Part shown: piece after piece, positions 2,978-20,218 of the stretch | Layout: the number at the start of each line of letters is the position of its first letter | Numbering within the stretch: position 1 is the first letter of the stretch | Virus record (IMG/VR): IMGVR_UViG_3300030102_000830 | Span: 1-20,218 of that record | DNA length: 20,218 bases | Source of the DNA: a virus | Strand: one strand, 5' to 3' | Made by a program: the position numbers and the translations under genes | Notes under the pieces: model-generated | Databases searched by the model: none | What the model was told of the DNA's origin: nothing | The model's input: only the letters and a program-made list of their open reading frames with translations

Positions 2978-4164
2978 TCTATTGCCTTTGCTTGTCCCTT
3001 GAAGCCATATCGGTAGTCCATTGGATAACATAAAGCATCCAAAAAGTGTGATAAGGTTTCTGTTTTTAATATTTGTCCATTCTCCATAGTGCAAAGTTCT
3101 AAATCTCTAATCAGATTCTTGCAGTTAGGATTGACAAACAAACGATGCTTACCTGTTGCATCTTCTAACATCTTATTTAAAGCATTGAGTCTGTCCTTTT
3201 GAGTGGGATTAGCTTTCTTACTGATTACTGTGAATCCACTCTCTTGTAATATCATATGGTCAGACTTTGTACTATTACTCGTTCTTGCCTTCCCTGCTGG
3301 GTCAGGAAAACATGGTAAGTTAGGTGCTTTTTGTTGCATTAGCTTTGCCAGTTCAAATGTATTTGAGTTCTGTAATCCGATTTCATCAAACACATAGACT
3401 TCTCCAGCAGTATTCTCGCACATTAGGATAGCAGTCATATAAGATGCTACCCCAAAGTCGATTCCCCAAAACATTCTTGGAGATTTATCCATTACTCTAC
3501 AATGAATATCTCTACTAAAGTTATATGCTGCTCTATTTGCAGCAGTAAGAAAACTTGCAAGATATTCTTGCTCAAAAGTTCTCTTATCTAAATTCTTTTT
3601 GGCATTCTCTACTTCTTCTTCAGAAATAAAGCCACCTTCTAAGGTAGTAAACTGCCAAGACTTATAATCTCCACCTTTAGATTGTCCTTTGACAAACAAA
3701 TCATAAAAGTGGTTTTGTACACCAGTAGGAGTTCCTACGAATAATGCATTACCTTTTGTTTCTGCTAAAGTTGGTTGTATAATCTCTCCCCAAACATTTT
3801 CTTTCATATAACTGTACTCATCCATCACTACCATTGTTGTGGATACTCCACGAAGTGAATCGGGTTTGTCTGCCCCTTTGAGTTCAATCTTTGCCCCATT
3901 GTCAAAAGTAATAGATAGTTCAGTTTCATTAATACTGACATCTTTCTTTGCAAAAATGTCCTTGAGGATACTCCAAGATACCATTTTAGCTTGTCTATAT
4001 GTAGGAAAGACAATCCACCTTCTTTCATTTCTTTTAAGAGGTGTTGATAATAAAAATAAAATGGAGAAGTAAGACTTTCCCCACCTTCTACCACAGGATA
4101 AGATTTTGTATCTTGTCTTGTCTTTAAGAATTTCTTTTCTTGTGGCATCAATCGTCCAATCCAT
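2971..4164 (-). CDS. terL: Terminase large subunit (ATPase/nuclease)
   Basis: A 397-aa packaging motor protein. The N-terminal ATPase domain shows a Walker A variant GRRWGKS (residues 25-31), a Walker B VVMDE (112-116) and the coupling motif GTPTG (144-148). The C-terminal RNase H-like nuclease domain shows its acidic metal ligands: GIDFG (Asp236), FPDPAGK (Asp288) and HFLDALCY (Asp376). It cuts concatemeric DNA and pumps it through the portal using ATP. It begins at ATG 4164, overlapping the end of the small-subunit gene by 17 bases, and it is followed by the small membrane protein and the portal. Length is slightly short for the family (usually 400-550 aa) but all core motifs are present. 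This is the most securely identified gene in the window. Confidence 0.97.
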   Translation of the reverse strand: MDWTIDATRKEILKDKTRYKILSCGRRWGKSYFSILFLLSTPLKRNERRWIVFPTYRQAKMVSWSILKDIFAKKDVSINETELSITFDNGAKIELKGADKPDSLRGVSTTMVVMDEYSYMKENVWGEIIQPTLAETKGNALFVGTPTGVQNHFYDLFVKGQSKGGDYKSWQFTTLEGGFISEEEVENAKKNLDKRTFEQEYLASFLTAANRAAYNFSRDIHCRVMDKSPRMFWGIDFGVASYMTAILMCENTAGEVYVFDEIGLQNSNTFELAKLMQQKAPNLPCFPDPAGKARTSNSTKSDHMILQESGFTVISKKANPTQKDRLNALNKMLEDATGKHRLFVNPNCKNLIRDLELCTMENGQILKTETLSHFLDALCYPMDYRYGFKGQAKAIEW

Positions 4165-4519
4165 CTATATCAAATACCTTAATCGGTTCATCTGAAACAT
4201 CTTTAATTCCTATGCTTTGACTTGGTTTACCCAAGATTCTATCTGCCAAGAAGTTAATTGCAGTCATATTCCCATCTAATGCTTCTTCATATACCTTGCC
4301 AACAACTGCTTCAAGCATGGTTTTTTTATCTTCTAATTCTACATTAGCAAGATTGGTTATATACTCGTTTAGGGCAAATCCTGATTTAGGTCGCCCTTTA
4401 GGGTTTCCTGATTGCCCTTTTTTCCATTGGTATTTCACCAAATTATCGTTTTTCTTTTTATCGCTGTTCTTTCCTTGTTTTACAGCGACCTTTGTTTTGG
4501 ATGCACCCAAACTAATCAC
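4148..4519 (-). CDS. DUF5681-type protein, probable terminase small subunit
   Basis: A 123-aa protein with a Lys/Asn-rich N-terminus and the hallmark KKGQSGNPKGRPKS (residues 33-46) of the DUF5681 family, whose phage members typically sit immediately before terL. The remainder is helical (about 50-105) with a short acidic end, FDIDGLDD. Small terminases recognise the packaging site in DNA and stimulate the large subunit; here that role is inferred from position and the basic DNA-contact-like motif. An in-frame stop lies just upstream, so the start is the GTG at 4519 or a TTG at 4510; neither has a good ribosome-binding site, which is unusual for the first gene of a head operon. The 3' end overlaps terL by 17 bases. 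Confidence 0.75.
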   Translation of the reverse strand: MISLGASKTKVAVKQGKNSDKKKNDNLVKYQWKKGQSGNPKGRPKSGFALNEYITNLANVELEDKKTMLEAVVGKVYEEALDGNMTAINFLADRILGKPSQSIGIKDVSDEPIKVFDIDGLDD

Positions 4520-4671
4520 CCCACTATTTGAAGGTTATGTTGTTCGTAAAAACGAAAGGAAGGTTGCCCTTCTACTATATAGGGAAAAAGACTACAAGAA
4601 ACCCTTAGTAAAGTCTTATAAATGCTTGTAAGTGTTGATATTGTTGATAAAGATTTTTTTTTGAGGACTAC
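4520..4671 (-). promoter_or_regulatory. Leader region of the terminase-head operon with two small hairpins
   Basis: About 150 bases with no gene separate the 4672-4693 terminator from the small-terminase start. On the minus strand this leader can form a hairpin with a GNRA tetraloop, GAAGG-GCAA-CCTTC (4572-4559), followed by a second, TTCGT-TTTT-ACGAA (4556-4543), both close to the poorly initiated GTG start. A near-repeat GACTACAARAAACCC occurs at 4590-4604 and again at 4666-4680, where it overlaps the terminator's T-run and stem. No convincing sigma70 -35/-10 pair is visible; TATAGT at 4577-4582 is a candidate -10 without a good -35. The operon may therefore use a phage-directed late promoter or read-through of the terminator. 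Confidence 0.4.
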
Positions 4672-4693
4672 AAAAAACCCCTCGATTGAGGGG
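4672..4693 (-). terminator. Rho-independent terminator after the 74-aa gene
   Basis: On the minus strand a perfect 6-bp GC-rich stem, CCCCTC-AATC-GAGGGG (4693-4678), is followed directly by six T residues (4677-4672). It lies 37 bases beyond the stop codon of the 74-aa gene and closes a monocistronic unit before the terminase operon. The plus-strand side has only CTTTC after the stem, so termination should act mainly on leftward transcripts. Confidence 0.9.
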
Positions 4694-4729
4694 CTTTCTG
4701 CACTTAACTGATATTAAGAGGTATTACAA

Positions 4730-4954
4730 TTATATTGAAGCAAATTCTAAGGCATCTTCTAAAGATTCAAACTTTCTAATAAATTGTTTATTAGTTGTTT
4801 CATCGATTAGAAAGAACTCTTTATTACTTAATTTGTGTATCATAACATTCTCATCTAATCTATTAGTGCCTTGAATAGCTTTAAACCAAACATTATTAGC
4901 ATCATGTTCTCCAACTACTGAATCTGCTAAAAATATATCTTTTTTAAATTCCAT
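4730..4954 (-). CDS. Hypothetical 74-aa protein, own transcription unit
   Basis: I do not recognise this small acidic protein. It appears to be a compact alpha/beta fold with the pattern HKLSNKEFFLIDETTNKQF (about residues 40-58) and a final acidic helix ending in LEDALEFASI. It has no signal peptide or membrane segment. The ATG at 4954 has an excellent ribosome-binding site (AAGGAG, 8 bases upstream). It stands alone: its own consensus promoter (5136-5164), a leader of about 175 bases with a long stem, and its own terminator (4672-4693). This isolation, between the sigma-like gene and the terminase operon, suggests separately timed or strongly expressed production, perhaps of a regulator or host-takeover factor; function is not shown. 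Confidence 0.8.
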   Translation of the reverse strand: MEFKKDIFLADSVVGEHDANNVWFKAIQGTNRLDENVMIHKLSNKEFFLIDETTNKQFIRKFESLEDALEFASI

Positions 4955-5177: not shown

Positions 5178-5480
5178 TTATTTTCTACGAAGTAAATGCT
5201 TAATTATGGTGGCTTGTTTTTGTAGTTTTTTGATGGCTCTATTATAGTAAGTCTTACAAGCCGATTCTGATATTCTCATGTTGAATGCTATGTCTGCAAA
5301 AGGTTTCTTATATATACTTCTGTCATAGAAGCATTGATACTCTTGGTCAGTTAATTCTCTACCTGCTACTACTCCAGTAAGTACATATTTTAGTTCTTCA
5401 AGCATTTTTGCTTGTTCTTGTTCTACTTCATCTATTAGGTCCTGATAACTTTTTGCTGTGTTTTCGATATTGTTTTTCAA
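5178..5480 (-). CDS. Sigma-70 region 4-like helix-turn-helix protein
   Basis: A 100-aa protein. After a coiled, acidic N-terminal helix (about residues 10-38), residues 43-88 follow the sigma-70 region 4 pattern: LTDQEYQCFYDRSIYKKPFADIAFNMRISESACKTYYNRAIKKL (split here only for reading), with the two HTH helices at about 59-67 and 70-83. It contains no region 2, so it is not a complete sigma factor. Small region-4-like proteins in phages often act as late-gene or packaging-gene regulators. The start is a TTG at 5480 in a TTGA overlap with the upstream methyltransferase, supported by AAGGAG seven bases before it; the first internal ATG would remove 25 residues. It is the last gene of the early operon, just before the head genes, so a role as the early-to-late switch is an attractive inference. 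Confidence 0.7.
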   Translation of the reverse strand: MKNNIENTAKSYQDLIDEVEQEQAKMLEELKYVLTGVVAGRELTDQEYQCFYDRSIYKKPFADIAFNMRISESACKTYYNRAIKKLQKQATIIKHLLRRK

Positions 5481-6766
5481 AACAATTCTCCTTGTACTTG
5501 AACTCCTTTTAATCTTGCTTCTGCTATATCGCAGTATTCTTGCTCTCTTTCTATGCCTATATAATTGAATCCTTGTTGCTTACAAGCAATTAGTGTTGTT
5601 CCACTACCTGCAAAGGGTTCTAATACTATGCCTTCTTTAGGTGTTACCAGTCTTACTAAATATTCCATTAGTTTTATTGGTTTTACTGTTGGGTGGTAGT
5701 TTTTTTGTGGTGCTTTTTCACTTCCATACTTCCCTGATGCTGAATTAATATCATCTAGATAGTTTCCAATTCCACCACCACCACCTGTTGTTTGTTTAGT
5801 AGATAATTCATCTAATCCCATATTTCGTTCTGCTTTACTTGCTTTGGCACAATAAAAGAATCTTGCTGCACTTCCTGAATCGCCAAAATTTGCTAAACCT
5901 TGTCCTTTATTTACATTAAAACCTGAATTTTTAGAATTAAAAGAAGAACCATCAGAACTCATACCTTTTCTTTGTATTTCAGAATTGTGTTTTAATTTAC
6001 CACTTTTTGTTTCAGGAAATATCTCTAATACTTCTTCACTTCCATCGTGGATTATGTTTGCAGGGAATCTTCCTTCTACAATGGTAGTTCCTATTTTTTT
6101 TATTTCTTTACCATTACCAAATTGATTTCCACTTTGATTAGTAAAATCATTAAAATTATTTTCCCTTTTTTCAGTTCCAACTCTACACTCATCTATGTTT
6201 ATTCCACCTGTGCCATGTTTTAAAACATTTTCTGCTACTGATGTGTTAAATGGTTTTCTTGCCATTACAATAGGTTCGTGTGCAGGTTTTAGTGCAGTTC
6301 CCCAACCTTCCCATTTTGAATTGCCTTTGGTATCTTGTAAATCTATTCTATCAGAATTTAACATATAACCATCTTTGCCTTTTTTATTTTGATAATTTTT
6401 TTTAATTCCAACAACTTCCCTTTTATTACCTTGCAATTTATCTACTGCTTTTCCAATATTATGTGATTTCGGAAAGCCACTACCATATAACCACCCTAAC
6501 ATATCTCTTATTTCAAATCCAGCATCTTCTATATTGACTGCCATTCTGTGATAAGTTCTTGAACCTGCAAAAGATAAGATATGCCCACCTGGTTTTAGGA
6601 CACGATATACTTCTTTCCATAATTCTACTTGTGGAACATCATAATCCCATTTCTTTCCCATAAAGGCAAGTCCATAGGGTGGGTCGGTAACTACACTATC
6701 AAAATAGTTATCCTCAAAGTCTTTTAAAACTTCTAAACTATCTCCACATAGTATTTTATTTGTCAA
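5477..6766 (-). CDS. Site-specific DNA methyltransferase (beta class, DPPY type)
   Basis: A 429-aa amino-methyltransferase that transfers a methyl group from S-adenosylmethionine to adenine N6 or cytosine N4. The catalytic motif TDPPYG is near the N-terminus (DPPY at 28-31). The SAM-binding motif is near the C-terminus (EPFAGSGTT, FAGSGTT at about 385-391, followed by GIEREQEYCDIAEARL). This order, with the target-recognition region between them (about 100-350), is the beta class. The central part contains GGINIDECRVG and GRFPANIIHDG, typical of phage and prophage COG0863-like methylases. The start is a TTG at 6766 in a TTGA overlap; no ATG precedes the catalytic motif. No cognate restriction nuclease is nearby, so it is an orphan enzyme, probably protecting phage DNA or regulating it. 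Confidence 0.9.
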   Translation of the reverse strand: MTNKILCGDSLEVLKDFEDNYFDSVVTDPPYGLAFMGKKWDYDVPQVELWKEVYRVLKPGGHILSFAGSRTYHRMAVNIEDAGFEIRDMLGWLYGSGFPKSHNIGKAVDKLQGNKREVVGIKKNYQNKKGKDGYMLNSDRIDLQDTKGNSKWEGWGTALKPAHEPIVMARKPFNTSVAENVLKHGTGGINIDECRVGTEKRENNFNDFTNQSGNQFGNGKEIKKIGTTIVEGRFPANIIHDGSEEVLEIFPETKSGKLKHNSEIQRKGMSSDGSSFNSKNSGFNVNKGQGLANFGDSGSAARFFYCAKASKAERNMGLDELSTKQTTGGGGGIGNYLDDINSASGKYGSEKAPQKNYHPTVKPIKLMEYLVRLVTPKEGIVLEPFAGSGTTLIACKQQGFNYIGIEREQEYCDIAEARLKGVQVQGELF

Positions 6767-7809
6767 AATAATACCTGCTGTGATGTTCGTTTGCGAATAA
6801 GTTTTTCATATTCAGGATTTAATTCTACTCCAATCCATTTCCTAAATAAATCTTGTGCTACCATCGCAGTTGTTCCACTTCCCATAAAACAATCTAATAC
6901 TATATCATTTTCATCACTACCTGCTTTGATACAAGTTTCGGCTAATTCAGGTGGAAATACTGCAAAGTGTGCTTCTTTATATGATGCTGTTCTCATGTTC
7001 CATACACTTCTTTTATTTCTCATATTATTCGTATAACCTGCTGTGCCACCTTTTTTTAATTTTTTTATTTCATCAGGTCGCATTCCACTCCCTTTTATTG
7101 TTCTTTTTTTTACAGTATTATTTTTTACTGGCTCTAATACTTGATTAAAAAAATATTTAGGTTGTTTTGAAAATAAGAAAATATATTCATGAGATTTAGT
7201 AAATCTATCCTTAACACTTTCAGGCATTGGGTTTGGTTTATGCCAAATAATATCTTGTCTTAATATCCAACCCCATTCTTGTAATGCTATTGCTACTTTC
7301 CAGGGGATTCCCATTAATGATTTTGGTTTATAATTTTTTCCTACTTGAAAAACACCTTCTCTTTTTGTGCCATAACCAGCCCTACCACCTTGTGATGCTC
7401 TTGAATTATTTCCAGCATAACTATCACCAAGATTTAACCATAATGTACCATCATCTCTTAATACTCTATGGACTTCTGCAAATACTTCTACCATATTTTC
7501 TACAAATTCTTCAGGAGTATTTTCAAGACCTAATTGGTTGTCTTTTCTTTTAGCATTACATTTTTTGCATTCATTTTTATATTGAGTTGCTTGTGTTCCA
7601 TAAGATGTTGTTTGTTTTTTTGATTTCTCTCCCCTTCCACCTAAAATTTCAATATGGTCGCAATTAGAATCGCCACCTTCCCATTCAGCAGTTCCATAAT
7701 CTCTTAAAGCATAATAGGGTGGTGAGGTTACACACATCTGAATAGACTTATCAGGAAGTTCTTTTAACTTCTCTCTAACATCGCCTATAAGTGTATAATT
7801 AGTTTTCAT
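6763..7809 (-). CDS. DNA methyltransferase (beta class, SPPY type)
   Basis: A 348-aa SAM-dependent DNA methyltransferase. Motif IV is TSPPYYALRDYG (SPPY at 29-32); Ser in the first position is commonest among N4-cytosine enzymes but also occurs in N6-adenine ones. The SAM site is at the C-terminus (VLDCFMGSGTT, about 304-314, then IGVELNPEYE), again the beta order. A Cys/His cluster (C-x-H near residue 50, CKKC near 85-88) may bind zinc in the target-recognition region. I chose the ATG at 7809, which has an ATGA overlap with the preceding 31-aa frame and gives the usual distance to the SPPY motif; an in-frame TTG at 7833 is a poorer alternative. The tandem arrangement with a second methyltransferase suggests two different modified sequences. 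Confidence 0.88.
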   Translation of the reverse strand: MKTNYTLIGDVREKLKELPDKSIQMCVTSPPYYALRDYGTAEWEGGDSNCDHIEILGGRGEKSKKQTTSYGTQATQYKNECKKCNAKRKDNQLGLENTPEEFVENMVEVFAEVHRVLRDDGTLWLNLGDSYAGNNSRASQGGRAGYGTKREGVFQVGKNYKPKSLMGIPWKVAIALQEWGWILRQDIIWHKPNPMPESVKDRFTKSHEYIFLFSKQPKYFFNQVLEPVKNNTVKKRTIKGSGMRPDEIKKLKKGGTAGYTNNMRNKRSVWNMRTASYKEAHFAVFPPELAETCIKAGSDENDIVLDCFMGSGTTAMVAQDLFRKWIGVELNPEYEKLIRKRTSQQVLF

Positions 7810-7901
7810 AATTCTTTTGGGATAAGCTGCCAAGCCATGTGATGTAGGGTAAGATTTCCTTTCTTAGTTTCATCACAACTATCCCAAACCTTCGTAGCCA
7901 T
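7806..7901 (-). CDS. Putative 31-aa microprotein coupled to the methyltransferase
   Basis: A small frame from ATG 7901 to TGA 7806, beginning MATKVWDSCDETKKG and ending MAWQLIPKEL. Its stop overlaps the methyltransferase start as ATGA, and its 5' end overlaps the preceding gene by 23 bases, which is the packing style of the rest of the operon. An in-frame stop lies shortly upstream, so ATG 7901 is the only usual start. The ribosome-binding site is weak (CAAGA). It has no membrane segment. The frame fills an otherwise empty 69-base gap exactly, which supports it being translated, if only as a coupling peptide; function unknown. Confidence 0.55.
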   Translation of the reverse strand: MATKVWDSCDETKKGNLTLHHMAWQLIPKEL

Positions 7902-11129: not shown

Positions 11130-11351
11130 TTAATTTAATATTTCAACATTATTACTATCTTCTACATAGATTGGTTTGCTTTTACCATCATATTTAACTA
11201 ATGGTGGGTGATTCCCAATCTTAACAATAGTACCAAATCTATCATCACAATCTTGATAAAATCTATCACCAACTTTAAGTTCATGTAATGGTTTATATTT
11301 TTTTATTTTAAATAAAAACCTACAATTATGTATCTCTTCTGCCTTACTCAT
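11130..11351 (-). CDS. Hypothetical 73-aa protein, possible small beta-barrel
   Basis: I do not recognise a family. Residues 20-70 are beta-rich with the phrases HELKVGDRFYQDCDDRFGTI and GNHPPLVKYDGKSK, resembling a small SH3-like or hint-like barrel; the N-terminus is basic. No signal or membrane segment is present. The ATG at 11351 has an AGGAG site and the gene stands 9 bases after the 74-aa gene and 20 bases before the SSB-like gene in the early operon. Small barrels at such positions can bind nucleic acid or partner proteins, but nothing specific is visible. Confidence 0.75.
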   Translation of the reverse strand: MSKAEEIHNCRFLFKIKKYKPLHELKVGDRFYQDCDDRFGTIVKIGNHPPLVKYDGKSKPIYVEDSNNVEILN

Positions 11352-11360
11352 TATTTTCTC

Positions 11361-11585
11361 CTATTTAATGTGTTCGGCAGAAGTTGGATTGGGTAGTTTC
11401 CTAATGTTCTCATCAGGTCTTTTAGCCATTTCTTCTGCCAAACGATTTTTCTCATTTTCTACTTGTTCACGAATTTTTCTTAAATCGTGTCTAAGTGTAT
11501 TTTCATTATCATTGTCAATTCTATTTCGTTCCATTACTTCAATCAACAATTCTAATTCTTCTAAGGTAAATTTTATGAGTACCAT
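11361..11585 (-). CDS. Hypothetical 74-aa charged helical protein
   Basis: I do not recognise this protein. It starts MVLIKFTLEELELLIEVMER and is predicted to be a long helical hairpin or coiled coil (residues 6-55), very rich in Glu, Arg, Asn and Lys, ending in a proline-containing polar tail. It has no enzyme motif or membrane segment. The ATG at 11585 lies inside the end of a 28-aa membrane peptide frame (13-base overlap) and lacks a strong ribosome-binding site, so its translation is probably coupled to that frame. It could be a small dimeric regulator or accessory factor; this is a guess from shape only. Confidence 0.72.
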   Translation of the reverse strand: MVLIKFTLEELELLIEVMERNRIDNDNENTLRHDLRKIREQVENEKNRLAEEMAKRPDENIRKLPNPTSAEHIK

Positions 11586-13691: not shown

Positions 13692-15977
13692 TTAAACCTC
13701 TCTACATTGTACTGAAACTTTACCTACTTGTCGTTTCAGATTTGTTATTATAAATTTTTTCCCACTCCAGGCATCCTTGAATAAACGAGTCGGCATTGAT
13801 ACATACGAGTCGAAGGTGTCTGATATTTCATTAAATGGACTTCCAAGTTCTTCAAAAGTAATCTCTCCAAAGTCTATGTAATCTCCAACTTGTAGCATTC
13901 CATATTTTTCAGGATTGACTAAAGTTGCATTTACTGTAGTTTTGTAATCTCCAAATAGACTTTCTCTAAAATTAATCCAACTGGAATTTCTTGAACCTAC
14001 CACATCTGCTACTGCATCATATAATAAATCAAGATTGACTTCTTGCTTTTGAATATCTGCATCACCAAAAATAGTAGTATGAGTTGATGCTGTAAAAGTA
14101 TCTTGTAATAGATATTCATTTTCGGCAGGATGTTTTTTGTAATTTACAAGCAATCTTGTTTCCAAATCTTGTGCCGAAGTAATCCCAAGTTCATATCCAC
14201 TAATATCATTTTGTGATAAATCAACATTAGCAGTAACACTATCTTCAATAGTAAAGTATCGTAATCCTGATACACCACTTATTGCAGTTTGTTGTGCTTG
14301 TGGACTAAACTCAAAAAAGAAACATCCTTCATATTGTAGTTGTTCCATAATACTTTCTAAAGATTCTTGTTCATCTAAAGCTAATCGTGTTTTCCAATGA
14401 GTTGATGTTGGACTGGTTGTAGTAGAATCTCTTAATTCTGCTACTGTTTTAAATCCTGAATTTTCAATATCAGTATCTCCAGTAAAATCAGTTACATTGA
14501 TAATGCTATGTAATAATTCTCTATGAATCGCTACTGGATTATTTAAATCTCCAATAGTAGTTGCAGTAGTATGTTCTGTGAAACTTGGTGTTGTAATATC
14601 TCTACCTAAATATACTTTTTCAATCCCTGCATTAAATTCTTGTGATGCAATCGGCTCATTTGCCAAGTCATTGGTTGCAGTAACTGTTACAAATACATTA
14701 CTTAATACGATTTCAAAATTACTATAATCTCCATTACCACCTTCTGCATTAAATCTAAAACTCAAATATAGCTCATCAGGTAAGGCATTGTTTTCTAATA
14801 TTCCTGATATATCTGTTGATGTTGGTAAAGCTACATTGGTTCTATCAAGTTTATCTCCACTTGAAGAAGTTCCTACTAATTCTATATCTCCACTTGATGA
14901 ACCAAAACTTCCACTTAGTGCATCTGCTAAATTAAAGAATGCACCATCAGTTCCACTTGGACTACCAGTTATGGTTTGACTATAATTACCTGATAACCCT
15001 AATGTAATTGCAGTAATCTTACCAGTTACTTGTGGCATTTGTAATTTAAATACTACACCTTTTGATTCACTACCAAACCCTGCTGTATTAGCATAAGTAG
15101 CATTGTTTCCTGTATTACCATTATAAGCATTATCAAGACTTCCTGAAGTTAAACTTACACCACTTCCAACAAGTGTTGCAGTTACATCATCAGGTAGCAT
15201 CTTAAATTGTCTTGTCATTAATGTTGGAACTTTTAATACTTTGACACTATCTACTGTTGCTATGGTAGTATTGGTATTGACTAATTCTACAAATCGTTTC
15301 ATTCCCTTGTCATAGAACTCTAATTTATCTGTTCCACTTGTTCCTTCAGGGACTATGTACATAAAATCTTTACCATCATTTTTAAGGAATGGACAAGCAT
15401 AGACATCTTGCCCATTTACAAATTCAGTATTGGCAGTATAGTCCCCATAAACCAAAGGGACTATCTTGTTATTGTATTGTGAATTGTCTGCATTTACACT
15501 TCTGCCTTGTGGAATAGACACATTCTGAAATGGTCTGTTAGATATGACATTCAATACAATAGTATTATTTCTATAACCAAAACTGGATACTTTACCACTA
15601 AAGATTTGTAAAGCATTATTTGCAGTATCATCTCCATCTATTTGAGATAATACATTGACATGACCATTGATGTATTCATTTCCTAACAATTCCAATAAGG
15701 TAGTTCCATCTAAATCGATATTGGCTATGTTTAGATTAATATTACCAGTCTTGGTTGTGAATCCTTTTAAATCCAATGAATAAGATATGCTTGGCTTGTT
15801 TAAGATTGCAGGATAATAGTTTATGCTATTGTAAGTAGTAGCAGAAAAACTAAATGCTAAATCAGGAGTATTAGTTGTTAAGATACTTGAATTATTATTT
15901 TTAAATATCTGCACTAACCAATTTTCAGTCATGGTTGGTGATAGCTTTGATTCATAGTTTGAATTAACAAAACTCAT
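13692..15977 (-). CDS. Tail-tip / baseplate hub-like protein
   Basis: The largest protein in the window (761 aa). The N-terminal region (about 1-190) has repeated beta-strand units, including IFSGKVSSFGYRNNTIVLNV and IVPLVYGDY, of the kind seen at the N-terminus of siphoviral tail-tip or hub proteins that cap the tail tube. The middle (about 260-460) is Ser/Thr/Gly-rich and may form an inserted beta-sandwich (ends of the putative lectin- or fiber-like part). The C-terminal third (about 540-761) resembles hub domain structure with DEQESLESIMEQLQYEGCFF. The role is closing the tail tube and starting host contact. It follows the tape measure and chaperone genes in the order usual for siphoviruses. 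It has an ATGA overlap with the upstream gene. Confidence 0.7.
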   Translation of the reverse strand: MSFVNSNYESKLSPTMTENWLVQIFKNNNSSILTTNTPDLAFSFSATTYNSINYYPAILNKPSISYSLDLKGFTTKTGNINLNIANIDLDGTTLLELLGNEYINGHVNVLSQIDGDDTANNALQIFSGKVSSFGYRNNTIVLNVISNRPFQNVSIPQGRSVNADNSQYNNKIVPLVYGDYTANTEFVNGQDVYACPFLKNDGKDFMYIVPEGTSGTDKLEFYDKGMKRFVELVNTNTTIATVDSVKVLKVPTLMTRQFKMLPDDVTATLVGSGVSLTSGSLDNAYNGNTGNNATYANTAGFGSESKGVVFKLQMPQVTGKITAITLGLSGNYSQTITGSPSGTDGAFFNLADALSGSFGSSSGDIELVGTSSSGDKLDRTNVALPTSTDISGILENNALPDELYLSFRFNAEGGNGDYSNFEIVLSNVFVTVTATNDLANEPIASQEFNAGIEKVYLGRDITTPSFTEHTTATTIGDLNNPVAIHRELLHSIINVTDFTGDTDIENSGFKTVAELRDSTTTSPTSTHWKTRLALDEQESLESIMEQLQYEGCFFFEFSPQAQQTAISGVSGLRYFTIEDSVTANVDLSQNDISGYELGITSAQDLETRLLVNYKKHPAENEYLLQDTFTASTHTTIFGDADIQKQEVNLDLLYDAVADVVGSRNSSWINFRESLFGDYKTTVNATLVNPEKYGMLQVGDYIDFGEITFEELGSPFNEISDTFDSYVSMPTRLFKDAWSGKKFIITNLKRQVGKVSVQCREV

Positions 15978-16363
15978 GTATATCTCCTAATTCGTTTAGT
16001 TGTTTTCTTGGAATAACTCGCAGATTGTTTTCCTTTTCTCGTTGCTTCTCTTTTCTTTCTTGTTTCATAAGCATATTGAGATGAACTCATAGACTTAATT
16101 AGTCTTTCAGGTAAATATCTTTCACCAGTCTTTGATGATTTCTTACCTGACTTGGTAGTCCATTTTTGCTTAGTCCATCTTGTTAAAGATTTAGCTGCTT
16201 TGGTTTTACCACCTCTATATCCACCACCTGCTTTTTCGTATGCCTTTACAAGAAGTTGAGATTTTCTTGCACTCCATTGTCCAGGTCTTCCACCTTTACT
16301 TCCTGCCATAATACGATTTTTAATTCGTTCTCTTAATTTAGGTTTGGTGAAATGTTTTGACAT
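15974..16363 (-). CDS. DUF5872-family very basic protein
   Basis: A 129-aa, extremely Lys/Arg-rich protein with the DUF5872 pattern: KLRERIKNRIMAGSKGGRPG followed by QWSARKSQLLV and AYEKAGGGYRGGK, then SLTRWTKQKWTTKSGKKS and the phrase ERYLPERLIKSM. DUF5872 proteins are known from large DNA viruses and some bacteria and phages; their function is not established, and the conserved basic blocks suggest nucleic-acid contact. Here it lies in the tail operon (TAATG overlap with the thioredoxin-like gene, ATGA overlap with the tail-tip gene), not among replication genes. It might be a virion component that enters with the DNA, or a DNA-associated factor made late; both are inference. Confidence 0.8.
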   Translation of the reverse strand: MSKHFTKPKLRERIKNRIMAGSKGGRPGQWSARKSQLLVKAYEKAGGGYRGGKTKAAKSLTRWTKQKWTTKSGKKSSKTGERYLPERLIKSMSSSQYAYETRKKREATRKGKQSASYSKKTTKRIRRYT

Positions 16364-16743
16364 TATTGTCCAATCTCCCTTCTAATGCTATTTAAGATTT
16401 CATCTTCTCTAAATTTCATCGATAAATCTGCTTCAAATCGTTTTACTTCTACACCATATTCAAAGATGATAATAGTAGGCACTACTGATATATCCCATTC
16501 TTTTTGAATGACTGCACCTATGTTTTTATTAGCTAAATCTACATATCCAGTATAGCATTTCTCTAATTTTTCCAATGGTATTTTGTTTGCCCAGTTCCAA
16601 GAAGCATTGACTTCTATGACTGCACAAAATTCGTTTTTCATTAATTGAATATCTTGAAAATTATCCAAAGATACTGATTGAGATTGTAGCCATGATGTAG
16701 ATAGTCCAAGCCACAATAACAACATACTTATCCATTTTTTCAT
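16363..16743 (-). CDS. Exported thioredoxin-fold protein lacking CxxC
   Basis: A 126-aa protein with a signal peptide (residues 1 to about 22: MKKWISMLLLWLGLSTSW) and then a thioredoxin-like fold. The strand CAVIEVNASWNWANKIPLEK (40-59) occupies the place of the usual active-site segment, but the W-C-G-P-C motif is replaced by W-N-W-A-N, so it cannot do disulfide exchange by the normal chemistry. The cis-proline strand VPTIIIFEYG (88-97) is well preserved, with a typical beta-strand and helix after it. It is probably periplasmic or virion-associated and structural or chaperone-like. It lies between the membrane coiled-coil gene and the DUF5872 gene in the tail operon. Similar Cys-less thioredoxin-like proteins are, as far as I recall, common in uncultured marine phages. 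Confidence 0.72.
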   Translation of the reverse strand: MKKWISMLLLWLGLSTSWLQSQSVSLDNFQDIQLMKNEFCAVIEVNASWNWANKIPLEKLEKCYTGYVDLANKNIGAVIQKEWDISVVPTIIIFEYGVEVKRFEADLSMKFREDEILNSIRREIGQ

Positions 16744-17049: not shown

Positions 17050-17169
17050 TTAATATCTCCTTAATTTTAGTTTTGGTTTCTTTAGTTTTTGTTTAATGCT
17101 TTTCTTTTTCATTCCAAATAGTTTCTTTGGTATGTATGCAAAAGCTGTTGATTTTGTTACATTACTCAT
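17050..17169 (-). CDS. 39-aa highly basic peptide after the tape measure gene
   Basis: A frame from ATG 17169 to TAA 17050. It starts MSNVTKSTAFAYIPKKLFGM and continues with a Lys/Arg-rich helix ending LRRY. Its ATG overlaps the tape measure stop as ATGA, and its stop precedes the next gene's GTG by one base, with that gene's AAGGAG site in its last codons. The fit between neighbours and the coupling signal make it a likely real gene. The strongly basic charge suggests nucleic-acid, capsid or membrane contact; no family is recognised. Confidence 0.68.
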   Translation of the reverse strand: MSNVTKSTAFAYIPKKLFGMKKKSIKQKLKKPKLKLRRY

Positions 17170-18770
17170 AAGTTTAATTTTTCTGCTCTCCTTATAGCTG
17201 GGATGATATGGTCTACTACTGTTTCATCTACCAATGGTGCAGATATATTTATTGTGATGTTATTTCCATTACTTGTAGGACTTGGTAATGGGGTTACATC
17301 AATTCGTTCCATACCACTTGCATTATCTCCTACTACTACTCCATTTCCAATAGGTAGGGTAGTTCTACCTTTTGTGATAAAACTACCACCTGTTGCAAAA
17401 GAGGAAAATAAAGAATCGGTTACTTTACCAATCATTCCACCTGCCCCTGCAGCTACTGCAAGATTAATAGGGAATGGTAATGCTTTCATAATACTTGAAA
17501 TCAATCCTGCTTGTGCTTCTGCTATTTCAGCTTTTACTACTGATATACCTGCTTCTTTAGCAGATTGTCCTTGAATAATTGCTGCTTCAAGGTTTTGTGC
17601 TATTTTTTCTCTATGTGCATCTCGTTCTTCTTTTCTTCTTTGTTTTTCTGCTTCTCTATTTCTTTTAATCAAAGCATCTTGCACAAAAAATTCTGCTTCT
17701 AAATTTCCCATTTTAGCTTGATGGAAATCATCATCCATTTCTTTCATAGCTTCATTGTGTGCTTCGGTATCTTGTCGCACTCTACCTAATCCTAAAGATA
17801 AAGATGCTATTTGGTCGTCTATATTTGTTTCAGGAATTCTTTGTAATCTATCTATAAAATCTCCTACTCCTTCTTCTGCTGCTTTTTTTGCTTCTGTATT
17901 AGTCCTTGCTATTGCAAAAGCTGTATTACCTGTTAAAATATTAAACAAACCTGCTTTTTCAATTAAAGTACCAAGTGTATTACCAAATCCTTGTAATAAA
18001 GGTAATGATTCATCTACCCTTTCAGCAAATTCTGTTACATCATCTGCTACTGCAATTAGAATTGGAGAAAATACTTTACCTATTTCTTCGCTTACATCTC
18101 CAATAGCATTATTCATTTGGTCTAATGAACCTGGTAAAGTTTCACCTGATGCTTTTGCTACTCCACCAAATTGTGTTTCTAATTCACTTAAAATAATCTT
18201 TTGTGCTTCAGCTATCTGTCCTGATTTAGTAAATGCTTTTACTTGTTCTTCTTGTTGCTTTGTTAATTGAACACCAACTCGTCTTAATGCTGTAACCCCT
18301 AAGATTGGGTCATTTAATGCTTTACCAACTTGGATAACTCCTTGTTGTAAGTCTTGTCCCATAGCTTCGGACATATTTAATACTGCTTCTATTGCATCAG
18401 GAAATACTTCTTTTCCTACTTTGGTAAATGTAAGCATTAAGGATTGTGCTTTAATAATTGCTTCATCACCAAATCGTGTTTGCTTTTGCAAAGCAGAAGC
18501 CATACCAGTTAATTCTTTTGCAGTTAATCCTGCTACTCCTGCAGTAGATTTTAAAACTGCATTCAGTTGAGTTTCTGCTAATATCTGCTCTCTTGTTGCA
18601 TTAATCATGCTTCTAAAGCCATCAAGCAACATTCTTGCACCAAAGAAAGATGCAGCTGCACCTGCAGCAGACTTAGCTAACCTACCTAATCCTTTATCTA
18701 CTTTTCCTAAATCTTTTGATGCCTTACTTGCACCTCTTGTCTTAATATCAACTTCGACTTTTCTAGCCAT
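17166..18770 (-). CDS. Tape measure protein
   Basis: A 534-aa protein with the typical tape measure composition: N-terminal helical region with small residues and a hydrophobic stretch (about 30-50, KSAAGAAASFFGARMLLDGF), a core domain like TMP_2/TP901 types (AETQLNAVLKSTAGVAGLTA, then LNDPILGVTALRRVGVQLTK), long helical charged regions (about 290-390), a membrane-like segment (about 425-450, LPFPINLAVAAGAGGMIGKV) and a Gly/Ser-rich C-terminal end with GDNASGMERIDVTP. It sets tail length and is ejected to help DNA cross the envelope; 534 residues predicts a rather short siphoviral tail. It starts at ATG 18770 with GGAG upstream and overlaps the chaperone gene by eight bases. Position directly after the frameshifting chaperone pair confirms the call. 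Confidence 0.92.
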   Translation of the reverse strand: MARKVEVDIKTRGASKASKDLGKVDKGLGRLAKSAAGAAASFFGARMLLDGFRSMINATREQILAETQLNAVLKSTAGVAGLTAKELTGMASALQKQTRFGDEAIIKAQSLMLTFTKVGKEVFPDAIEAVLNMSEAMGQDLQQGVIQVGKALNDPILGVTALRRVGVQLTKQQEEQVKAFTKSGQIAEAQKIILSELETQFGGVAKASGETLPGSLDQMNNAIGDVSEEIGKVFSPILIAVADDVTEFAERVDESLPLLQGFGNTLGTLIEKAGLFNILTGNTAFAIARTNTEAKKAAEEGVGDFIDRLQRIPETNIDDQIASLSLGLGRVRQDTEAHNEAMKEMDDDFHQAKMGNLEAEFFVQDALIKRNREAEKQRRKEERDAHREKIAQNLEAAIIQGQSAKEAGISVVKAEIAEAQAGLISSIMKALPFPINLAVAAGAGGMIGKVTDSLFSSFATGGSFITKGRTTLPIGNGVVVGDNASGMERIDVTPLPSPTSNGNNITINISAPLVDETVVDHIIPAIRRAEKLNL

Positions 18771-19164
18771 TCTTTTCTCCTAAATATTGTCTTACTGCAT
18801 TTAGTTCATTATTAATAATATCGAACATATCTAATTTATAACTATCGGCTTCTTGTAAATTATTAGCCAAAGGTAAGTTGTAATTTTTCATATAGTTATA
18901 TTCTTTCATTATTTCTCTATGTTCATCTGTTATAAACCATTCAGGCTTACTAAATAATGGAATATGAAAATATAGATTTCTGCCTAAAGTAAATTTGCTA
19001 TCTGCAAAAGTTTCTACCAAAGCATATAACTCATCGGTTACATCTTCTATACTTTCATACTCCTTATTTTTCTTTGTTAAGGGGCTTTGTCTTTTATAAG
19101 GAAATTCTAATGTGCTGTGTGGAAATCCCAGTTGAGAAAACCACACATACATTGACAAACCCAC
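18763..19164 (-). CDS. Tail assembly chaperone, T-part (made as GT fusion by -1 frameshift)
   Basis: A 133-codon frame following the G-like gene. It could begin at GTG 19164, but that has no ribosome-binding site, while the frame is entered exactly by a -1 slip at the A AAA AAA heptamer (19176-19170) in the G-like gene: ribosomes slip and continue as I-I-V-G-L-S-M-Y-V-W-F. The fusion would be about 227 aa. The frame is charged and helical in its second half, with aromatic-rich strands before it, consistent with a GT-type chaperone C-terminal part that binds tail tube protein. The end overlaps the tape measure start by eight bases. In lambda-like phages the GT protein loads tube subunits around the tape measure. 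Confidence 0.75.
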   Translation of the reverse strand: MGLSMYVWFSQLGFPHSTLEFPYKRQSPLTKKNKEYESIEDVTDELYALVETFADSKFTLGRNLYFHIPLFSKPEWFITDEHREIMKEYNYMKNYNLPLANNLQEADSYKLDMFDIINNELNAVRQYLGEKNG

Positions 19165-19445
19165 TATGATTTTTTTGAATCGTCAGATAGTCCCATATAA
19201 GACAAGAAGATTTGTTGTAATAATGAATCAATATTAGCCATACCTAATTTCTCATCATCTTTATTTACATAATCTTCAGGTTGTAATCCTGATATTTCTT
19301 CTACCTTTTCCAGTAGTTCAAAATACTTATCTTGATTTAGTTCATCTCCAACAAAAGTCATAGTATTTAACTTCCATAACTCTCGTTTTTCTTTGTAAGT
19401 AGGATTGTTTACTTCCCACTCTTTATCGAACATTTTTACCTTCAT
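19164..19445 (-). CDS. Tail assembly chaperone, G-part
   Basis: A 93-aa protein, mostly helical and acidic, starting MKVKMFDKEWEVNNPTYKEK and ending SKKS. This fits the small tail assembly chaperone (lambda gpG-like) lying between the major tail protein and the tape measure, and the position is conserved across siphoviruses. The ATG at 19445 has an AAAGGAG site. Close to its end the codons TCA AAA AAA contain the slippery heptamer A AAA AAA (19176-19170) in the correct phase for -1 frameshifting; the normal stop TAG follows two codons later. Both the short G and the longer GT product are therefore expected, in the ratio needed for tail assembly. Confidence 0.8.
   Translation of the reverse strand: MKVKMFDKEWEVNNPTYKEKRELWKLNTMTFVGDELNQDKYFELLEKVEEISGLQPEDYVNKDDEKLGMANIDSLLQQIFLSYMGLSDDSKKS
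19170..19176 (-). promoter_or_regulatory. Programmed -1 ribosomal frameshift site (A AAA AAA)
   Basis: Seven A residues on the minus strand, in phase X XXY YYZ of the G-like gene (TCA AAA AAA TCA TAG). A -1 slip leads to codons ATC ATA GTG GGT, directly into the 133-codon frame. The next in-frame stop of the zero frame is only two codons away. The location, immediately upstream of the tape measure gene, is the canonical place for tail-chaperone frameshifting. A downstream stimulatory structure is not obvious by eye. Confidence 0.85.
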
Positions 19446-19456
19446 GTTTTACTCCT

Positions 19457-20218
19457 TTACCAACTTGAATTACTTATACCATCCATGAACTCAAACTTAA
19501 ATGCTGTTCCTGATGCTGCACCACTTGAAGTAGGTTGTACTACTTTAAATGGAATAGTAATAATAGCACCTGTGTCTGCATTTAAATCATAATTCACAGC
19601 AGTTGAATATACTTCTGCAGTAATATTCATTTCTCCTGCACTTGATACTGTACCATCACCTTGTTGTAAGGTTAATGTAGCAGAATCTCCATCTAAGAAG
19701 TCCTGTAATACATTATTAGCACCATCATTAAAGTTTCCATCATACATGAAAGAAATCTCTCCTGTGATGTTGATTGATGGGACACCAAAAGCATATGCTT
19801 CTGCATCTCCATTAGCATCTCTACCTACTCTTGCAACATTGTTTTCAAAAGTAAATGATACTGCTGTAATGATAGCATCAGTTGCTGAACCATTAACATC
19901 AAATTGTTTTGTATCAAAATATGATTCAATTTGTGTTGGTGAAGCACTCATTAGTGTTGGTTCTCCACTATTAGCAGATAATGTTTGTCCAACTTTAAAT
20001 CCTGTTGAACTTGCAAAACCTGAATAGAAAGTACCACTTAATAGCAATCTACCATCAGTCATATCAAAGTTCATTGTCAATGATTGTAATACTGCACTTG
20101 AAATAATCTTATCTTCCCCAGCTGCAGGTCCATATAACCCAATATCAAATAAACTTGGGATACCAGCACTTGAAGCACTTGCACTTGAACTTAAATCAGG
20201 TCTTGATAAAGCATTACT
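19457..20218 (-). CDS. Major tail (tube) protein, 5' end outside window
   Basis: The frame is open from the right edge of the window (codon at 20218-20216) to a stop at 19457, giving 253 visible residues; a TTG at 20080 is not needed as a start because the reading frame continues upstream without a stop. The sequence is rich in Ser, Ala, Gly, Asn and beta strands, with phrases such as GLYGPAAGEDKI near the start of the visible part and IITIPFKVV near its end, and has few Cys or basic residues. This matches major tail tube proteins, many copies of which stack around the tape measure. The next genes are the G/GT chaperones and the tape measure, the expected order, which secures the identification. 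Confidence 0.82.
   Translation of the reverse strand, partial: SNALSRPDLSSSASASSAGIPSLFDIGLYGPAAGEDKIISSAVLQSLTMNFDMTDGRLLLSGTFYSGFASSTGFKVGQTLSANSGEPTLMSASPTQIESYFDTKQFDVNGSATDAIITAVSFTFENNVARVGRDANGDAEAYAFGVPSINITGEISFMYDGNFNDGANNVLQDFLDGDSATLTLQQGDGTVSSAGEMNITAEVYSTAVNYDLNADTGAIITIPFKVVQPTSSGAASGTAFKFEFMDGISNSSW

Follow-up and report, generated by a model that had tools for sequence, protein, structure and literature searches.

A likely programmed −1 ribosomal frameshift, followed by a conserved RNA fold, in the tail-chaperone operon of an uncultured marine tailed phage

The stretch of DNA that we analysed, hereafter the window, is a 20,218-base record of an uncultured tailed marine phage, whose tail-assembly chaperone operon very probably uses a programmed −1 ribosomal frameshift. 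The frameshift would be ordinary in kind, with solid evidence behind it. What we add is a conserved RNA fold just downstream of the slippery site, which probably stimulates the slip.

The tail genes of the record all lie on the minus strand, as does every feature given below. Read along that strand, they run from a major tail protein ORF (19457–20218, cut at the window end; PHROG major tail protein, E=6e-4) through a 93-aa ORF, G, and a 133-codon ORF, T, to a tape measure protein ORF of 534 aa (17166–18770; PHROG tape measure, E=2e-42; TMP_2, E=2e-8). Two short ORFs between a major tail protein and a tape measure are the arrangement by which a lambda-type G/GT pair is recognised. The G-like tail assembly chaperone ORF occupies 19164–19445 and is preceded by the Shine-Dalgarno (SD) sequence AAAGGAG, with a duplex of −8.2 kcal/mol; its frame is intact in relatives. 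The T-like extension in the −1 frame spans 18763–19170, comprising 135 codons after the slip plus a stop, with base 19170 read twice, and its end is overlapped by the tape measure ORF. The gene order extends to related sequences: 26 of 26 have a major tail protein upstream of G, and 21 of 26 have a tape-measure match within 1.5 kb downstream. The same tail module holds a basic DUF5872 protein at 15974–16363 (Pfam E 1e-6, above cut-off), whose PHROG matches are of unknown function, and a thioredoxin-like ORF at 16363–16743, whose N-terminus is signal-like and in which we saw no CxxC (Pfam E 0.055, below cut-off).

Sequence similarity says little about the two short proteins. Neither G nor T had a clear match in PHROGs, Pfam or NCBIfam, or among solved structures (PDB), and hhalign of G to lambda G, HK97 gp13 and the corresponding protein of Rhodobacter phage RcRhea gave no clear match. 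A structure model of G had a pLDDT of 92.9. Its best viral-model match in BFVD (E 1e-4) carried no name; among the 50 rows listed, 7 were named tail assembly chaperone, all at E 0.16–1.5. Tail chaperone ORFs have little sequence in common between phages, according to passages of a review (PMC5009743). The likeness to lambda, which would make G and T tail assembly chaperones, is one of gene order, of the arrangement of frames and of a weakly similar fold.

On the minus strand, the 3' end of G reads GAT TCA AAA AAA TCA TAG TGG. The seven A at 19176–19170 form the slippery heptamer A AAA AAA (19170–19176) in exact −1 phase, as an earlier note on this DNA had described, and a 7-nt spacer (19163–19169) that contains the G stop TAG (19164–19166) separates it from the predicted RNA stem. 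The −1 ORF starting at GTG 19164 is 133 aa long. The same note had a slip entering this frame at ATC ATA GTG and yielding a fusion of about 227 aa; our reading agrees, giving 92 + 135 = 227 aa with the junction KK-IIVGLSMYVWF, and all of its figures proved correct. When we scanned 29 ORFs for seven classes of in-phase heptamer, 23 were found in 6124 codons, and only A AAA AAA at 19170–19176 fell within 12 codons of an ORF end. Chance expectation for ORF-end heptamers is about 1.3, taking the scan rate over 29 × 12 codons. In a single AT-rich genome, such a heptamer taken alone would be weak evidence of frameshifting, and we therefore examined relatives.

A search with the G protein matched 64 viral contigs. 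In all 64, as in the window, a run of 7 or 8 A comes to an end at a codon boundary near the G stop, past which the −1 frame remains open for 131–135 codons. Profile searches with G and T then gave 209 usable loci. Many were repeat retrievals of one contig, and the set reduced to 76 distinct sequences that include all 64 contigs of the G protein search. These relatives were located by protein similarity, and the heptamer was not used as a criterion. All 76 have an in-phase heptamer at the same codon, 72 as A AAA AAA and 4 as C CCA AAA. The earlier note had proposed conservation of the heptamer phase across related phages as a check, and the phase is indeed kept, with a coordinated change of the heptamer itself in the four. 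Conservation of this extent among the sequences compared is far more than chance would give. Divergent seeds added only partial new contigs that start inside T and lack the junction; the count of 76 predates them. In the phages database, searches by DNA or by G protein found no relatives, and a T profile search of genome contigs found none either. For the comparisons that follow, we drew a non-redundant set of 27 sequences under 90% nucleotide identity from 75 relatives plus the window. One row, L197, was dropped as too short, and another, L102, in which T is cut at 36 codons, was dropped from the fusion and RNA sets.

The C CCA AAA form occurs in 4 distinct sequences, which represent 11 loci and have no A-run longer than 4. 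By parsimony the swap is one event, with a single change per column in the first three columns, so that AAA becomes CCC at heptamer positions 1–3. This keeps the X XXY YYZ pattern but destroys the A-run, which favours ribosomal slippage over polymerase stuttering. Codon choice around the site is also restricted. Across the 27 sequences, AAG is used for 0 of 52 slippery lysine codons, compared to 125 of 556 lysine codons elsewhere. The codon before the heptamer is GAA in 15, TCA in 8, GCA in 2 and AAC in 2; AAC precedes C CCA AAA, and GAA, TCA and GCA all end in A before the A heptamer. The amino acid at this position thus varies and the last letter of the codon is fixed. Beyond the heptamer, the 0 frame shows varying residues and ends at one or two codons. 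The −1 reading is mostly R-L/I-I/V/M-G/A-L...YVWFSQ and aligns without gaps directly from the heptamer onward, upstream of any start codon.

T has little that would allow it to be translated independently. At GTG 19164 the anti-SD duplex is +0.3 kcal/mol, a value that does not change if spacers shorter than 4 nt are disallowed, compared to −8.2 kcal/mol for G and −7.3 kcal/mol for the tape-measure start; the earlier note's statement that the downstream frame lacks a ribosome-binding site is thus borne out. Across the non-redundant set, a duplex of −4 or better is present at 26 of 27 G starts and at 1 of 27 first T starts, the latter being a distant codon 44 in the L128 lineage. This lineage is without a T start for 43 codons, and in clade B the first T start does not come until codon 9, which already lies within the conserved part. 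A start that overlaps the G stop, at codon 3, is found in clade A, where it is GTG (TAGTG, as in the window), and in clade C, where it is mostly ATG (TAATG). The earlier note had also held that T is probably made only as a fusion. The missing SD and the lack of an early start in clade B and L128 agree with this; clades A and C, with their overlapping starts, may make some free T by reinitiation. The combination that the note had set against a frameshift, an absent heptamer together with an independent start and ribosome-binding site, was found in 0 of 76 distinct relatives. Two relatives, L200 and L202, have a G start without the usual AAGGAG (anti-SD −3.8 in L200 compared to about −8 elsewhere), and the start chosen for them may be wrong.

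Stimulators of −1 frameshifting are conserved RNA structures that lie about 5–9 nt downstream of the slippery site. In the window, the predicted minimum free energy structure is a two-tier stem-loop with a 3' bulge at 19082–19162, and this form is found in all 27 non-redundant sequences. Its lower stem has a 5' arm at 19154–19162 that pairs with 19082–19087 and 19089–19091, within a 3' arm at 19082–19091. The 5' arm of the upper stem (19141–19153) pairs within the 3' arm at 19109–19122, and an apical helix and loop (19126–19137) closes through pairing of 19134–19137 with 19126–19129. Between the upper and lower stems, the 3' side leaves a single-stranded bulge of 17 nt (19092–19108). The earlier note had suggested searching 19100–19169 for a stimulatory pseudoknot. 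A candidate stimulator is present there, but it is a nested, bulged stem-loop that reaches to 19082 rather than a pseudoknot; since the predicted structures are nested, we rejected an H-type pseudoknot. A GGA:UCC contact between the apical loop and the 3' bulge is possible; it sits in invariant glycine and proline codons. Rfam gave nothing at gathering score in 18900–19400, and one weak chance match fell outside the RNA element. By eye, we found no consistent upstream SD stimulator motif across clades.

The same topology is predicted in different registers in the three clades, with the 5' arm CUUUGU at columns 19–24 in clade B and 17–22 in clade C. In every clade, the predicted upper stem stacks on the lower 5' arm and is followed by an apical helix; roughly 20 bases, most of them unpaired, then precede the lower 3' arm. 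Measured from the heptamer in the consensus folds of the clades, the lower stem begins 7 nt downstream in clades A and C and 8 nt downstream in clade B, and this distance of 7–8 nt is kept despite the change of stem register. An X XXY YYZ heptamer and a conserved RNA structure 7–8 nt downstream, the two sequence criteria of stimulated −1 frameshifting, are therefore both found here. Register shifts that leave the predicted fold in place are a sign of selection for the fold; they also break column-wise tests.

Statistical support for the element comes mainly from a synonymous-codon shuffle scan along the G–T gene in the 27 sequences. The 85-nt window starting 7 nt past the heptamer had a mean z of −3.69, with 26 of 27 sequences at z ≤ −2, and a mean energy of −29.5. 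The other 24 of the 28 windows (those not starting at −20, 0, 7 or 20) had mean z of −0.07 to −1.26 and mean energies of −9.0 to −14.9, and no other such fold was found within the gene. Dinucleotide shuffles of the element gave z ≤ −2 in 27 of 27 sequences, with a mean of −5.2. The sequence of the window itself had z −2.7 (90 nt) or −3.8 (85 nt), and the element is outside the 15 best z scores of 1258 windows scanned across the record, so the case for it rests on conservation.

Pairing within clade B (36 sequences, 24 pairs) was retained in 96.1% of cells, compared to 33–58% with the arms slid by 1–3 columns. Five pairs, in the clade-B equivalent of the upper stem, have changes on both sides, and there are 12 such cells compared to 5.8 in shuffles (0 of 500 as high). 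In the lower stem, 7 of 9 pairs never vary, and the pair 18–93 is broken in 7 of 36 sequences. A tree-aware covariation test over 55 sequences had no pair reaching E 0.05; of the pairs that join the stem arms, the best was 27–63, used in clades A and C, at E=5.1. Owing to the register differences between clades, the consensus fold of the whole alignment retains only 6 pairs. In a tree-aware energy test, 0 of 200 nulls matched the element, which had the largest deviation of 25 windows (z −5.65). This test is liberal, since 5 of 22 windows (those not starting at −24, 0 or 7) also had 0 of 50 nulls, and we therefore place weight on the synonymous-shuffle scan. A covariance model built from clade B recovered the element from all 11 of the clade A and C sources at E 2e-10 or better, with scores that are partly sequence because the model includes the heptamer. 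It gave no match at E up to 1 in four cultured-phage loci, and one chance match at E 0.15.

The two frames could instead be fused during transcription, by a polymerase that stutters on the A-run and so yields mRNAs with an extra or missing A. Most relatives do carry runs of 7 or 8 A, and polymerase slippage on 9-A runs is known in bacteria, as noted in parts of the review cited above (PMC5009743). However, the runs here reach 7–8 rather than 9 or more, the exact phase kept in all relatives is unneeded by a polymerase, and an RNA fold 7–8 nt downstream is as expected of ribosomal stimulators. On account of the C CCA AAA variant, at the same codon in 4 of 76 distinct relatives, we rejected transcriptional slippage, which we regard as highly improbable. 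It is also conceivable that T is a separate protein, made by termination and reinitiation at the start that overlaps the G stop. Clades A and C, which have GTG or ATG at codon 3, would permit this, but the earliest start is codon 9 in clade B and codon 44 in L128, there is no SD, and conservation of the −1 frame begins ahead of the start codon. Reinitiation would also leave both the heptamer and the RNA fold unexplained. As the only route to T, it was rejected on clade B and L128, and as an account of the locus we consider it quite unlikely, if a little less so than polymerase stuttering.

A different doubt concerns the fold itself: the frameshift could be real and the RNA structure have another role, for example in mRNA stability or as a translational pause. 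Stable folds do occur elsewhere in the window, and the rank of the element among the 1258 z scores fits such a role. Against it, the element stays 7–8 nt from the heptamer in every clade though the register changes, and this is the sole such fold in the G–T gene. We therefore think a role other than stimulation unlikely, while granting it appreciably more weight than either alternative to ribosomal frameshifting.

Under programmed −1 ribosomal frameshifting, most ribosomes would read G and stop at TAG 19164–19166. A fraction would reach TCA AAA AAA, with both P and A sites occupied by tRNA-Lys, as they meet the RNA fold 7 nt downstream; both tRNAs would then re-pair one base back on A AAA AAA, and reading would resume as ATC ATA GTG GGT to give the 227-aa G–T fusion. 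In lambda, a minority of ribosomes change frame; G attaches to the tape measure, and T to the major tail protein, as the corresponding passages of the review describe (PMC5009743). By analogy, G would bind the tape measure here and the T part would recruit the major tail protein, with the slip rate setting the G:GT ratio. Passages of the same review report that A_AAA_AAA slips less than A_AAA_AAG in E. coli (PMC5009743), which makes a strong downstream stimulator plausible. On balance, we favour the view that a family-specific two-tier stem-loop of about 80 nt, with a long 3' bulge and lying inside the T coding sequence, sets the G:GT ratio, and that it has been kept through changes of register between clades (alternative 5' arms, same 3' arm) and a change of heptamer. 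Where a start codon overlaps the G stop, the element could also gate free T as a third product.

Similar to lambda G/GT, the order here is major tail protein, G, T and tape measure, T overlaps the start of the tape measure gene, and an in-phase heptamer lies near the G end (in lambda, G GGA AAG at roughly 6 codons from the end). Lambda also has a stable predicted fold after its heptamer, with z −3.2 at offset 0 (one sequence, z about −3). Unlike lambda, there is no sequence similarity, the heptamer is another one, and the tape measure has 534 rather than 853 aa. HK97 (gp13 and frameshifted tail protein) has an annotated −1 frameshift that likewise lies between the major tail subunit and the tape measure, but gp13 has no sequence similarity to G here. 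RcRhea has a tape measure related to that of the window (44% identity over 36%), an annotated joined chaperone, and G GGA AAC in phase at its G end; however, its G is not detectably similar and it has no comparable downstream fold (z −0.9 to −1.5). For Corynephage phi16, a tail-gene frameshift with a downstream RNA stimulator has likewise been proposed, but with an internal SD, GGGGGAA and an H-type pseudoknot in one phage, in contrast to the family-conserved nested bulged stem-loop seen here (PMC5506516). E. coli dnaX shares the lysine-codon A heptamer and downstream stem-loop, as excerpts of the review describe (PMC5009743). It uses A AAA AAG and an upstream SD, which differs from the lack of a consistent upstream SD, by eye, in this family.

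The G/GT frameshift is a textbook case of translation setting stoichiometry. The founding papers on tail-chaperone frameshifting are reportedly those of Xu, Hendrix and Duda (2004, 2013 and 2014). Judging from sections of other reports, such frameshifting is common and a stimulator has been proposed before (PMC5009743, PMC10885494, PMC3711429, PMC5506516), and 6–7% frameshifting has been measured in phage tail chaperone cassettes (PMC3711429). Our literature search, at the level of listings and abstract openings, found no paper on a frameshift in this phage group. In this uncultured phage family, slippery site, spacer and putative stimulator can be compared across many sequences, and the swap from A AAA AAA to C CCA AAA, together with the register changes, supplies natural variants for testing stimulator design. 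Ordinary gene calling will miss or split the predicted G–T fusion in contigs of this kind. Two protein families that go unrecognised by Pfam, PHROGs and NCBIfam can now be named as likely tail assembly chaperones.

Other parts of the window hold further features of note. At 4669–4702, between the ORFs 4730–4954 and 4148–4519, a perfect hairpin (GCCCCUC..GAGGGGU) followed by a U-run resembles an intrinsic terminator. A long hairpin at 11336–11383 (z −5.5) encloses the AGGAG and AUG of a 73-aa ORF (11130–11351), with CAUU paired to AAUG, and could regulate translation of that ORF. Two adjacent ORFs with overlapping ends at 5477–7833 carry DPPYG and SPPYY motifs and resemble DNA methyltransferases.
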